Virus record (IMG/VR): IMGVR_UViG_3300030419_004762
Coordinates: 2,014 to 27,217 of that record
DNA: 25,204 bases
Source of the DNA: a virus
Direction: 5' to 3' (one strand)
Part shown: in pieces, positions 6,164-20,790 of the stretch
Layout: each line of letters begins with the position of its first letter
Numbering within the stretch: the first letter of the stretch is position 1
The notes under the pieces: model-generated
Seen by the model: only the letters and a program-made list of their open reading frames with translations
What the model was told of the DNA's origin: nothing
Databases searched by the model: none
Position numbers and translations under genes: made by a program

Positions 6164-6604
6164 TTATGAAAGTTCTTCTGTAATTCTTTCCCTAACGAGA
6201 GAAAAGTTTTCTTGTATTTCCTTCTCTCTAATTCTTATCAGGCGATAGCCTTCTTTTTTTGCAATCCAGTTTTTTAACATATCATTCTTTTTGGCGGCCA
6301 TAATAACCCAACTTGGTTTACCTTGTGAGTTATGCCAATAGTCACCATCTACTTCTATCAGAAGTTTGTGTTGTGGTAGATAAAAATCATAATATCTCCA
6401 CTGACCTTTGATATATGGAAGTGGGTGCTCACGCAACCAATCAACACCCACCTCATCTAAAAGACCAGCAATAGCCTTCTCTAACGAACTCATTTCTCTA
6501 TAAGCTCTATTGACAGGCTTTTTATTCTGTGCTGTTTGAAGTCTCTTTTTTAATCTTTCTACAGACTTCTTATTATACTTTCTGTTTTGCTTCATCTTCG
6601 CCAT
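6164..6604 (-). CDS. Vsr/DUF559-like PD-(D/E)XK nuclease
   Basis: A 146-residue protein. After a very basic N-terminus (~1-30) comes a small nuclease fold: a helix with E42, the strand Y-Y-D-F-Y-L-P (71-77, D73), the core I-E-V-D-G-D-Y-W-H (83-91), the helix K-N-D-M-L-K-N (106-112) and R-L-I-R-I (121-125). That order is typical of the DUF559 and very-short-patch-repair-like endonucleases, which nick or cut DNA using a PD-(D/E)XK site. In phages such stand-alone nucleases may be homing-type or repair enzymes. The ORF overlaps the preceding gene by 32 bases; a later in-frame ATG (6595) would shorten the overlap to 23. Substrate is unknown. Confidence 0.75.
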   Translation of the reverse strand: MAKMKQNRKYNKKSVERLKKRLQTAQNKKPVNRAYREMSSLEKAIAGLLDEVGVDWLREHPLPYIKGQWRYYDFYLPQHKLLIEVDGDYWHNSQGKPSWVIMAAKKNDMLKNWIAKKEGYRLIRIREKEIQENFSLVRERITEELS

Positions 6605-6842: not shown

Positions 6843-7275
6843 CGTCTTTATCCTTTTTTGTTTCCATTCTTTCTTGTAGGTAATCTATTATGTTAAGAAC
6901 CAATTCATTTTTGTTTTTGTTCTTTCTCACAGTTTCCTCTATGCCCTGTACCTTTTCTTCTTTTGACTCTACTGCAGCTTTGGGAGCAGGCTCAAGTGGA
7001 ACTTCTTTTTTTGGTCTTTCTTTTTGTGGTGCTGATTTTATTTCATTAGCTATTGTCAGAATGGCAGCATGAAAATCTGAGATGTCGCCACTGATTGATT
7101 CTAGCTGACTCAATAAAGTAAAATAGTAATTATCAATAATGGCACTGATGGACTCATCAGCAAAAGTTATGTGTGCAGTTTTATTCAGATCACTAAATGT
7201 TGTCTTAAAAATTTCTATGTGACCCAAAAGAGAAATAATACTAGTTAGTCTTTCATCAAGATTATCTTCACTCAT
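6835..7275 (-). CDS. Unknown helical protein with Lys/Glu/Pro-rich linker
   Basis: A 146-residue protein. Residues 1-75 look like a compact helical domain (M-S-E-D-N-L-D-E-R-L… I-D-N-Y-Y-F-T-L-L). Residues ~80-118 are a low-complexity linker rich in K, E, P and A. A last short helix (N-I-I-D-Y-L-Q-E-R-M-E, ~127-137) ends in alternating K and D. No motif for catalysis is visible. Both ends are coupled by 8-base overlaps with its neighbours, so the three genes at 7648, 7275 and 6842 are very probably translated together. Confidence 0.7.
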   Translation of the reverse strand: MSEDNLDERLTSIISLLGHIEIFKTTFSDLNKTAHITFADESISAIIDNYYFTLLSQLESISGDISDFHAAILTIANEIKSAPQKERPKKEVPLEPAPKAAVESKEEKVQGIEETVRKNKNKNELVLNIIDYLQERMETKKDKDDE

Positions 7276-7648
7276 TTATCTCTCCGTCTTCTTCAAGAAC
7301 TACTAATTGAATATTGTCTAATTTACCATTACTATCCATATCAACCTTTATGTCATATTGACTAAGGAGTAAAGGAATATTGCCCTTTGTTTCCTCAAAC
7401 ATATAATACAACATTCTGTTAATACCTTCATTATTTAAATCTTTTATAGAGGCATCATAAATACTATTTGCAATAAACCACTGTTTAAAATGTTCGTTAG
7501 CAACCAAGTCTTCATTTGGAAGTCCTTCGGGAACTTCCTTACGTAATACTTCAGCAGCATCTAGCATCTTCTCTCTAATAAAAGTAACTCTGGCTGCTAA
7601 TGCTTCTTCATTTACATCAAGAATTTTTTCTTCTGATTGTTCTGTCAT
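7268..7648 (-). CDS. Unknown acidic protein
   Basis: A 126-residue acidic protein starting at ATG 7648, seven bases after AAAGG. It is mainly helical with conserved-looking aromatic positions (H-F-K-Q-W-F-I-A-N, ~73-81; R-M-L-Y-Y-M-F-E-E, ~98-106) and a C-terminal strand pair (Q-Y-D-I-K-V-D-M-D… L-D-N-I-Q-L-V-V-L-E-E). The family is not recognised. Its ribosome site directly follows the 92-nt hairpin element at 7669-7760, so translation of this gene, and of the two coupled to it, may be controlled by that structure. Confidence 0.7.
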   Translation of the reverse strand: MTEQSEEKILDVNEEALAARVTFIREKMLDAAEVLRKEVPEGLPNEDLVANEHFKQWFIANSIYDASIKDLNNEGINRMLYYMFEETKGNIPLLLSQYDIKVDMDSNGKLDNIQLVVLEEDGEINE

Positions 7649-7668
7649 TTCATAACCTTTCTTTTTTT

Positions 7669-7760
7669 AGAGGTTAGTCAAAAGCACTTACACATTAATG
7701 TTGGTAAAGAACCATTTATGAGAGATACCCAACGTGCATGATACTTTTTGACTAACCTCT
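7669..7760 (-). ncRNA. 92-nt structured RNA element closed by a 15-bp perfect stem
   Basis: AGAGGUUAGUCAAAA (7760-7746) is exactly complementary to UUUUGACUAACCUCU (7683-7669). Inside, GCAC (7737-7734)/GUGC (7687-7684) and GUUGG/CCAAC (7733-7729 with 7703-7699) can form further helices, leaving a 5' bulge, a 12-base internal loop and an apical loop that holds UGGU/ACCA. The element begins at the last base of the upstream stop codon and ends just before the SD of the next gene. No U-run follows, so it is not an ordinary terminator on either strand. Whether it is a leader switch, a processing site or a stable RNA is not known. Confidence 0.6.
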
Positions 7761-8389
7761 TACATTATATCTTTTTCATCTGATGAATCTGAATCACTAA
7801 TTTCTTTCAGCTCGTATCTTTTTGTTTCTTTATCCAATTTATATAACTCAAAAACAGCACTCTTTTGTTGTCCCTCTTCATCTTCATCATCATCATCATA
7901 AAAGAGGTCTTCAGATATTATCTTATCCATCATGTAATCTATGTTCAGAGGTATAAAACTTGCCTTTCCAGATGGATTTAGTATTATGGTTTCCAAAGGG
8001 TCTGGCCTAAAAGCATCAAGAATGTTTTGAGCCATAGGTGAACCAACAGTGATATCTTGACTATGAATGTGGTTGCTATTCATAATTTTGTGTATCTTTG
8101 GGAACGAAAACTCTACCAAAACAATCTTATCACCAAACATCTTAAAAAGAGTTTTCTTTACTTCAGGCTTATTGACGTATATAGAAGCAATTTCTTGAGA
8201 AGTAAAACCAACTACAACCCTTTCATTGTTTGATAACTCAACCGTGTATAAACAATTACCATCGGTATTACCTATGAACCACATTTTATAGCCATTATCA
8301 ATCAAATTGTTTAATACAATTTGTGCTGTAAGCCTACCTACATTACCCTCTATGTATTCTGCCGTCCATTTTCTTTTGTCTTTTTGCAT
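7760..8389 (-). CDS. Unknown protein with acidic low-complexity C-terminal region
   Basis: A 209-residue protein. The SD GGGAG lies eight bases before ATG 8389. Residues 1-150 look like an alpha/beta fold (…KMWFIGNTDGNCLYTVEL…, V-V-V-G-F-T-S-Q-E-I, E-T-I-I-L-N-P-S-G). Residues ~163-175 are almost pure Asp/Glu, and the end is Ser/Asp-rich (S-D-S-D-S-S-D-E-K-D). The F-T-S-x-E and I-L-N-P-S-G pieces loosely recall SseB-type domains, but the match is too weak to name it. It begins 21 bases after the dnaE stop and is probably co-transcribed with it. Confidence 0.7.
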   Translation of the reverse strand: MQKDKRKWTAEYIEGNVGRLTAQIVLNNLIDNGYKMWFIGNTDGNCLYTVELSNNERVVVGFTSQEIASIYVNKPEVKKTLFKMFGDKIVLVEFSFPKIHKIMNSNHIHSQDITVGSPMAQNILDAFRPDPLETIILNPSGKASFIPLNIDYMMDKIISEDLFYDDDDEDEEGQQKSAVFELYKLDKETKRYELKEISDSDSSDEKDIM

Positions 8390-8410
8390 GAATAGTCTCC
8401 CAAATAAATA

Positions 8411-11400
8411 TCAATCTATAGGATTAGGGTCTAGTAATGTCTCTATTATTTCTTCTTCACCTATCAAAGTCTTCTTGCCCCAACCGATACTGCGACCAAA
8501 TGTATCAGAAGAAAGTTTTACTATCAATACTTTGCCAGGTATCAAATCATCTTGGTGATACTGTAACTTGTTATGCCACACTCTAAAACCTGTTCCATCA
8601 TCAGCACGGACGTTAGCATAGGGTTTACCTTTCTTGGTCTTTAACATTTCAACCGTTGACACTGTAAGGTAAACAGCGTCATGGTCATCAAGACTATCAT
8701 CAAAGTTAGAGATGTGTGGCACACCTGCCTGTTCTACTAACTGGACAACCTTGTCGTGTAGTTCTCTATCTTCGTTGACACGGAAGCCGACATACTCTAA
8801 CTCAATACGGATTTGTTCTTTCTCAGTATACTCATCATCTTTATCAATATCAAAGGCAGCAACAATAGGTGATAAGAACTTGCCGCTGATAAGGTCATTG
8901 ATAGTCAACTTCTCTTCTTCATCGGGAAAGAGTTTTTCTGTGATAATCTTCAAGTCCCTCTTGGGCATCGTGGCTAATTTGTAATAAATATCCGTAATCT
9001 CATTGAGTGACTTGCGACTAAACTTCTGACCACAGAACTGTAGGTCATCAAATAAACCCAAATCAATAAGTAGTTTTAGGTCATTAGCAGAACACATCTT
9101 GTATTGTAGGTTGTCCTTGAGAAACTCGTTGAAATCTAACCATCCACCATCGGGCGTATATCTCTTTATCTTACCAAGAACAGACTTACCCAAACCCTTG
9201 ATACCCAATAGGCCAACGAAATATTGTTCATTAGTAACCTTGAACTCCAAAGAGAAGTCATTGATACTACCAAGTGTAACTTCGGGGTCATCCAACAATG
9301 TTCTTGCTGTCTGTAAGCACAGAGCGATTTGGTCGTGGTCATCAGCGTGATGATTCGACATAACCTCAACAAACTCTGCTGGGTGCTTAGCCTTGAAGTA
9401 ACTAGTCCAATAGGCAAGGATACTATAACTAATGGCGTGAGACTTGTTGAACAGGTAACCTGCATTGTCAATCAACTTACCGGCAACCTGTTTGGTTTCT
9501 TCCATAGATAAGACCAGCTTTTCGGGGTGGTCGTATAGATGTTCTTGTAGATAGGCATTACACTTGTCATGGTCTAACGATTCACCAATCTTACGAAGAA
9601 TGTCACCTTCACCAAAACTAAGACCCAACATATTGAACATCTGAATGAATTGCTCTTGGTAAATCATAATACCTTGAGTCGGTAAAAGTATGTCATCAAA
9701 CATTGGGTGATGGTCATTACTAACTTCTTCTTCACCATTTTTACGAGCAATGTAAGAATCCAAAGCACCCATCTGTATAACGCCTGGCCGATAGATAGCA
9801 TTGACAGCAGCAATGTCTTCTATGTTGGTGGGATTACACTGTGACAATACTCTTGAAATGTTTGAACCAGCAAACTGAAAGACACCGTATGTATTCCCCT
9901 CACATAAGAGCTGATAGGCTTTATCGTAATAGACCTGTTCATCCTCACTCAACAACTCACGGTCAACAGGCATGGTATACAGGTCTTCTATAGTCATTCC
10001 TACCTTGTCCATAATGTCTTTGATGATAGACAAAGTAGAGATACCTAACATATCAATCTTGAGAAACTTCATCTTAGCCAATTCATCTATCTGCCACTCA
10101 GTTACCAAGAGGTCATCTTTAGTCTTACGTAGTGGCATCATATCATACAGAGGACTAGATGAAATGATTACACCACCAGCGGCGATGGTCTGATTACGAG
10201 CATTACCGTTGAGTGTATCAATAATCTCAACAAAGTCAGAACTCTCTTCTTTTGGCATAGATTGAATAAACTTACGAACCTCTGGTTTATCCTTTGCAAT
10301 GTCAGCAAATGTAGCCATTGACTTGTTTAGAGAGATGTGACCAGAGATTGTCTTGGCAATCTTGTTGGACTCAGCGAATGGTAACTTCTTGTCCTTAGCT
10401 AAATCACGGAACAAAGTATTAACAGAGTAACGGGCATATGCAGCAACCGATGCAATATTAGCTTCACCCCACTTACTTGCTACATACTCTTTTACACGTT
10501 CTCTATCTTTATCAGCAAAGTCATTGTCAATGTCTGGTTCTTTGATACGAGTAGGGTTCATAAACCTCTCAAAGAACAGATTGTATTTGAGTGGGTTGAG
10601 ATGTGTAATACCCAACAACCAACACAACAAAGCGCCACTGGCACTACCACGGCCTGGCGACATCAGAATAGAGTTGTCATAAGCCCACTTACAGAAATCT
10701 TGTGTGATAAGAAAGTAATCAATGTAACCTTTGTCGGAAACCAACTCCAACTCTTTCTTAAGAGCTTCAGCGTATCTTGGTATCTCATCAATAGGTATCT
10801 GACCAGAATCAACCTTGTCTTGCATACCCGTCTTCAACTGACTAATAATGTATTCATTGTTGTCTTTGAAACCTTCGGGTGTAACAAACTGTGGCTCTTT
10901 CAATGTCTCAGTATCAAGTTTAGCGTGACACCGTGAAGCAATAAGTTTTGTAGACTCCACAGCTTCATCAAGGTATTCATCAGCGATAAGGTCACCATAA
11001 CCATTATTATGCCACAACGCTCTCATCTCATCTTCACTGGCCAAATAAAGAGAGTGGACACCAGCTTCATCAAACTTGCCGTCTGTATTCATTCTCCAGA
11101 GGAAGTCGTGTGTCTTGTCGTGTTGTTTCAACACAACGTGTGTATCGTTAGCCAAAACACAACGGACACCTTCATACTTCTTACGAAACAACTCAATCAG
11201 AGCAACATTGTAATCCCTCTGTATGTCAAGGTCGTGTGGGTGTAATTCAACGAAATAATTGTCCTTACCAAAGATACCCAACATCCTATCAAAGAACGCT
11301 GTCATCTTGTCGGTCTGCTTGGCTTGTAAATACCGTGCCATGTTACTAATCACACAAGTGGTAGTAGCGATAATGCCTTCAGAGTGTTTCTCCAATAAAT

Positions 11401-18139: not shown

Positions 18140-18217
18140 TTTAACCTTTGGTAGAATAAATATAGACTAGAAAATTTTAGAAAAATGACTATCAATCAAA
18201 AAAATTTAAAATCATTT
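18140..18217 (-). other. AT-rich gap with weak inverted repeat
   Basis: A 78-base gap between the membrane protein and the deaminase gene. AAAAATGA and its complement TCATTTTT (18181-18188 and 18212-18219) form an A/T-only 8-bp inverted repeat with a 23-base spacer, followed in the transcript by T-rich sequence. It could be a weak terminator. A TATATT lies further on but has no -35 match at the right distance. Nothing stronger is seen. Confidence 0.3.
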
Positions 18218-20746: not shown

Positions 20747-20790
20747 TTTGCTCTTTATTGCCCAAAAGAGCAAGAGCAATAAAGAGCAAA
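20747..20790 (-). other. 15-bp perfect hairpin just downstream of thyX
   Basis: TTTGCTCTTTATTGC (20790-20776) and GCAATAAAGAGCAAA (20761-20747) are exact complements with a 14-base loop, starting 25 bases after the thyX stop. No T-run follows on either strand, so a standard intrinsic terminator is unlikely. A second pairing, CTCTTTTG with CAAAAGAG, uses part of the same bases and would exclude the first. Confidence 0.65.

Follow-up and report, generated by a model that had tools for sequence, protein, structure and literature searches.

Background

One of the closest described systems is the mRNA hairpin upstream of gene 43 in the phages T4 and RB69, an autogenous gp43 operator with conserved apical bases and a freer lower stem (PMC3014915). 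In T4, mRNA hairpins also occlude the ribosome binding sites (RBSs) of the late genes e, soc, 49 and I-TevI (PMC3014915). The hairpin described here was found in a 25,204-nt stretch of DNA (the window) within a 27-kb IMG/VR virus record. It resembles the gp43 operator in being carried by a phage replication-operon mRNA upstream of an RBS; in 12/12 copies it keeps a place about 20 nt ahead of the ATG. Unlike that operator, it sits after the polymerase gene and one more gene, its binder is only putative, and it measures 85–92 nt in three stacked helices, compared with 16–18 nt for T4 operator hairpins. As with the T4 late-gene hairpins, it adjoins an RBS and could time expression; unlike them, it leaves the Shine-Dalgarno sequence (SD) outside, between the last pair and the ATG, and the SD is open in the folded state in most members.

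T7-type intercistronic RNase III sites are long imperfect hairpins between cistrons, and in UCCC-loop RNAs (RNAIII of S. aureus, LhrC of Listeria) a C-rich apical loop can pair with SDs. In contrast to the T7 sites, the present hairpin occurs once per record and has an invariant tip, with cleavage only a candidate activity; in contrast to the UCCC-loop RNAs, a separate RNA is only putative and target complementarity is weak outside the window lineage (defined below). Intrinsic terminators are matched by a sister lineage, in which the stem is followed by a U-run, whereas the window lineage has no U-run; the family also differs from terminators in that the stem is topped by some 60 nt of conserved sequence with a structure of its own.

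Locus and hairpin architecture

Nearly all genes in the window are encoded on the minus strand. Given that this holds for every gene around the hairpin, the RNA was read on the minus (coding) strand from 7760 to 7669. The hairpin occupies the 111-nt gap between the stop codon of a 209-aa gene (7762–7760) and the ATG of a 126-aa gene (7648), both listed in Table 1. The 209-aa gene comes just after a DnaE-type DNA polymerase (a phrog_405 match); a UvsX-like recombinase is also encoded in the window, together with what we take, from reading the sequences, to be ThyX and a ribonucleotide reductase. Downstream of the hairpin, ORFs of 126, 146, 89 and 146 aa overlap end to start in series.

The 209-aa protein had no match in PHROG or Pfam and no homologue in the bacterial genomes searched, and its predicted structure was a poor model with no significant PDB match. 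For the 126-aa protein, the predicted structure (pLDDT 81) matched no PDB fold at E ≤ 0.001. Neither fold revealed an RNA-binding protein next to the hairpin.

Two further features were observed among these genes. A conserved UGAUAUUUAUU stands just before the 209-aa gene (8402–8413, minus strand) and at the same place in the set of 12 relatives; the UGA within it is the DnaE stop codon in the window. A small endonuclease-like protein (6164–6604, minus strand), with matches to DUF559 and to PHROGs of phage HNH/homing endonucleases, overlaps the 89-aa gene of the downstream cluster at its end.

Read on the minus strand, the hairpin sequence is AGAGGUUAGUCAAAAAGUAUCAUGCACGUUGGGUAUCUCUCAUAAAUGGUUCUUUACCAACAUUAAUGUGUAAGUGCUUUUGACUAACCUCU. 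An initial annotation of this DNA had reported a perfect 15-bp stem, and the repeat is indeed perfect, its two copies forming the arms of the outer helix P1 (Table 1). Base 7683 can pair in either P1 or P2, by a slip in an A/U run. The minus-strand fold of positions 7640–7770 (131 nt) has an energy of −37.1 kcal/mol (z −5.6), equalled by 0/200 shuffles, and the plus-strand fold of 7669–7760 has −25.9 kcal/mol (z −4.3); the minus strand thus folds better than the plus. A covariance model of the family (R1) matches 7757–7672 with 81 bits. The same annotation had noted that no terminator U-run follows, and the window 3′ of the stem in fact reads CUCU-AAAAAAAG (A7 after CUCU). The AACCU of the 3′ arm and the AGGUU of the next RBS, for which it had proposed pairing, are both present.

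Table 1 Features of the hairpin locus in window coordinates
Feature	Position	Strand	Basis or remark
209-aa gene, adjoins hairpin upstream	7760..8389	minus	homologues in relatives
126-aa gene, adjoins hairpin downstream	7268..7648	minus	homologues in relatives
Whole RNA hairpin	7669..7760	minus	perfect 15-bp repeat, fold and covariance-model matches
P1 5′ arm	7746..7760	minus	first base is last base of 209-aa stop codon
P1 5′ core GGUUAGUC	7757-7750	minus	100% paired in 12/12
P1 3′ arm	7669..7683	minus	core GACUAACC at 7679-7672
P2 5′ strand AGUAU	7741..7745	minus	pairs with 7687-7683
P2 3′ strand GUGCU	7683..7687	minus	
P3 5′ strand GUUGG	7729..7733	minus	invariant in 12/12
P3 3′ strand CCAAC	7700..7704	minus	invariant in 12/12
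Apical loop, candidate recognition site	7705..7728	minus	UCUCYCA (7725-7719) and GGUUY (7713-7709) conserved
SD AAAGG of 126-aa gene	7656..7660	minus	
UGGGAGA in 209-aa RBS, tentative possible loop partner	8396..8402	minus	complementary to UCUCYCA, window lineage

Relatives and distribution

Protein and pattern searches recovered 11 further distinct copies in viral contigs (L008, L009, L010, L109, L012–L016, L156 and L159; L011 has the same sequence as L010, and the two were counted once). All 12 copies lie in the same gap, flanked by homologues of the 209-aa gene and the 126-aa gene, with one copy per record. The protein tree splits them into a window lineage (the window, L008–L010 and L109; n = 5) and a sister lineage (L012–L016, L156 and L159; n = 7). 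The flanking proteins of the relatives share just 38–54% identity with those of the window.

A search of the whole window with the Rfam 15 covariance models gave no match at the gathering cut-off, and at E ≤ 10 only sub-threshold chance hits fell within 7600–7800. Neither the locus nor the 126-aa protein had a match among named phages in distant blastn and tblastn searches, and DnaE matches there reached about 30% only. The loop motif was not found in bacterial genomes. In IMG/VR, 118 sites found with a loose loop pattern were examined and yielded one new true member (L109), the others being chance; a stricter pattern occurred in four other contigs, none of which fit the covariance model. No account of the element was found in a search of open-access literature text. 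Since all members belong to one clade of metagenomic phage fragments, their conservation may come partly from descent. Judged by comparison of these sequences, the hairpin represents a genuine RNA family, so far uncatalogued, within a single phage clade.

Covariation and selection at the RNA level

Two-sided changes were found at four of the eight pairs of the P1 core (pairs 3, 6, 7 and 8). The arms seen in the window are replaced in relatives by GGCUAUUC/GAAUAGCC, GGCUAAUC/GAUUAGCC, GGUUAGCU/AGCUAACC and GGUUAACU/AGUUAACC, and P2 covaries as C-G, U-G and U-A. Over the whole structure, 26 cells carried two-sided changes; shuffling gave 9.2, and sliding the partner gave 7 at most. To control for relatedness, 1000 simulations placed the changes of each column, in unaltered number, at random on the protein tree. 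None of these reached the observed number of paired cells, the number of double-change cells or the covariation score, and two contained as many doubly changed pairs as were observed. P3 never varies, and its pairing therefore lies outside the reach of this test.

One-sided changes, counted on the coding strand in cells that are not all independent events, gave 16 G-U and 0 A-C pairs. Both kinds would be expected of a DNA palindrome, so selection on the RNA is indicated; the sense fold was also stronger than the antisense in 11/12 copies. A held-out covariance model (R2), built from the seven sister-lineage sequences only, recovered 5/5 window-lineage copies and nothing else in 156 kb, with the window copy as its best match (54 bits, E 4.8e-10). 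Compensatory changes beyond phylogeny therefore occur together with strand-specific G-U pairs, as expected of a structured RNA. The initial annotation had called the hairpin a structured RNA in an uncharacterised operon and a candidate for an undescribed regulatory RNA, and had proposed related phages as the place to seek covariation; with compensatory changes across 12 distinct sequences and no Rfam match, the description as a structured RNA stands.

Conserved tip and placement

The most conserved part of the element is the P3 apical loop, in which UCUCYCA and GGUUY are nearly invariant; it had gone unmentioned in the initial annotation, whose proposed SD switch does not need it. P3 is identical, and the loop almost so, across sequences whose flanking proteins have diverged to 38–54% identity with those of the window. 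From a stem that is free in sequence but kept paired beneath a frozen tip, we infer a recognition hairpin, of which this combination is the usual mark.

Other candidates were rejected on inspection of the sequences. A mini-ORF in the loop (AUGGUU..) is missing from several members, and mimicry of the 16S 3′ end (GUUGGAU..CUCC) would need a CCUCC core that is not kept, two members having UCUCUC. In an integron attC site the GTTRRRY and RYYYAAC halves have the opposite order to that seen here.

From the last P1 pair to the ATG of the 126-aa gene, the distance is 18–23 nt in 12/12 copies (20 nt in 6/12), whereas that from the upstream stop codon to the P1 core varies from 2 to 21 nt. A point about 20 nt before a start codon is approximately the 5′ edge of the 30S footprint. 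The near-fixed distance on one side and the variable one on the other mean either that the element is registered to the downstream start or that it merely keeps the smallest distance that spares the ribosome, as could be the case in a compact genome.

Proposed function

The hairpin is most likely a cis-acting control or processing element of the replication operon. We give about an even chance to a particular form of this, a cis-acting phage mRNA element at whose tip a putative trans factor would set the output of the downstream cluster against that of the upstream part of the operon. The transcript segment of 85–92 nt would fold into the three stacked helices P1, P2 and P3, capped by the sequence-conserved apical loop. 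P1 and P2 would act as a scaffold in which pairing is kept and sequence is free, with P1 ending about 20 nt before the 126-aa start codon, where the 30S footprint has its 5′ edge. The sequence read by the factor would be that of P3 and the loop; the factor may be a protein, of the phage or of the host, or a second RNA. Binding, or the hairpin alone, would then set the output of the overlapping cluster relative to the DnaE/209-aa part, most likely at the level of translation initiation or mRNA processing; we infer both that a factor binds and which way control runs. Where P1 is followed directly by U4–U8, as in the sister lineage, the element would probably also be an intrinsic terminator, perhaps a partial one.

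Alternative explanations

It is possible, if on the doubtful side, that RNase III cleaves the hairpin, or that the hairpin protects 3′ or 5′ ends, and that the DnaE/209-aa and 126-aa messages are parted there in a T7-like manner. The long, near-continuous helix of P1 and P2, with internal loops, lies exactly between two genes and keeps its pairing while its sequence is free; cleavage or protection would also suit lineages with and without the U-run, and by shape alone an RNase III site is compatible. Such a role leaves the invariant apical loop and P3 unexplained, however, and a single copy per record contrasts with the many sites of T7.

A trans-acting small RNA derived from the 3′-UTR, ended or processed after P1, is unlikely. 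Its loop sequence UCUCCC would be an anti-SD seed for GGAGA-type RBSs in mRNAs of the phage or the host, the 209-aa RBS among them, and UCUCC is complementary to GGAGA. A U-tail follows the stem in 7/12 copies. In the window lineage, the loop is complementary to the UGGGAGA of the 209-aa RBS over 7 nt (with one G-U in the window), GGGAG being carried by only 4% of background RBSs; for loop pairing, the 209-aa RBSs of this lineage rank in the best 6–16% of the background and that of a 146-aa gene in the window, GGAGAGAUA, in the best 3%. The window lineage nevertheless has no U-tail, and the sister-lineage 209-aa RBS is a GGAGA without extra pairs, in which the third loop C finds no partner and the energies are mostly ordinary (4–55% of background, with the L016 start mis-called). 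Seed complementarity to the target RBS was thus not found in all lineages, and the loops outdid shuffled loops in RBS pairing only weakly (1–8 of 30 shuffles were equally good).

The SD switch of the initial annotation, in which the 3′ arm of P1 would mask the 126-aa SD while a ribosome at the upstream stop codon holds the 5′ arm, is distinctly unlikely for the family. SD accessibility was compared between the whole hairpin, the hairpin with its 5′ arm removed and the RBSs of other genes placed behind the same 3′ arm, the control sets being small (1–16 genes). The SD was open in the folded state in most members. In the window, its accessibility fell from 0.77 with the whole hairpin to 0.40 without the 5′ arm, but the other RBSs averaged 0.48 and 6/16 were as low, so that the SD was not hidden better than chance. 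Without the 5′ arm, the SDs of L008 and L010 were still open (0.87 and 0.80), and that of L109 went from 0.57 to 0.44, with 3/10 controls as low. The SD of L009 was hidden, and L008 and L009 share a 7–8 bp AUAGCCC/GGGUUAU complementarity. In the sister lineage (7/12), accessibility without the 5′ arm was 0.07–0.29, below all of its controls, because the CCUUUU of the U-run pairs with AAAGG(AG), and a switch is plausible there. Taken with the window-lineage results, this means that an SD switch is not a property of the whole family: the claim is not supported for the window and survives as a possibility in the sister lineage. A stop codon 20–21 nt ahead of the P1 core in L014 and L015 also speaks against it, as does the conserved loop, which a switch does not need.

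It is quite improbable that the loop is an anti-SD seed for long-range pairing, whether in cis or from a processed small RNA, with GGAGA sites in the RBSs of the upstream 209-aa gene and further phage genes. If true, the start of a gene would be repressed by the hairpin that lies behind it, which would couple the two parts of the replication operon.

That the hairpin is only an intrinsic terminator or attenuator between two gene groups is very improbable. U4–U8 stands directly after P1 in 7/7 sister-lineage members, but the U-run is absent from 5/5 window-lineage members, in which hairpin and loop are nonetheless conserved; the window itself does not have a G+C-rich stem followed by a U-run, and terminators do not require a conserved tip. 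Finally, a DNA-level palindrome (a protein site or a recombination or replication structure), suggested by the inverted repeat itself, is largely refuted by the strand bias in G-U pairs and folding and is extremely improbable.

Other intergenic features

The 8-mer ATATTTAT was enriched in gaps, occurring in 16 of 107 gaps as against 17 copies across 188 kb of coding sequence. It was strand-biased, the reverse form being seen in one gap, and was often followed by NYTACC (in the window at about 18160). This box is a candidate for a promoter or signal motif of the phages. Words resembling a −35 element of the TTGACA type (CTTGACAA) and TATATTAT were also enriched in gaps beside ATATTTAT in six records (G000, G001, G003, G009, G011 and G012), which suggests two promoter classes.

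Another strong hairpin between genes (z about −5) is similar in the relatives L165 (G001:C1:51324-51461) and L171 (G003:C1:2933-3068), where it comes after the 89-aa gene that follows uvsX; the equivalent gap of the window (18140–18217) is without it. In the window, a perfect 15-bp hairpin (TTTGCTCTTTATTGC..GCAATAAAGAGCAAA) was found beside the thyX-like gene at 20747–20790 on the minus strand, in a gap with a fold z of −6.7. An ORF of a relative (L164, G001:C1:35363-36496) reads, by its sequence alone, like an ammonium transporter (Amt) and is a possible auxiliary metabolic gene.

Implications

Few structured RNAs of uncultivated phages are established, and the evidence for the present family, from covariation tested on a tree, G-U strand bias and the held-out model, is unusually clean. 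A hairpin with a fixed address behind a DnaE-type polymerase offers a ready model, an exact tip and a gene pair. Should the cis-acting element proposed above be a translational operator, DnaE-encoding phages would have in it their equivalent of the RNA control of the T4 polymerase operon.
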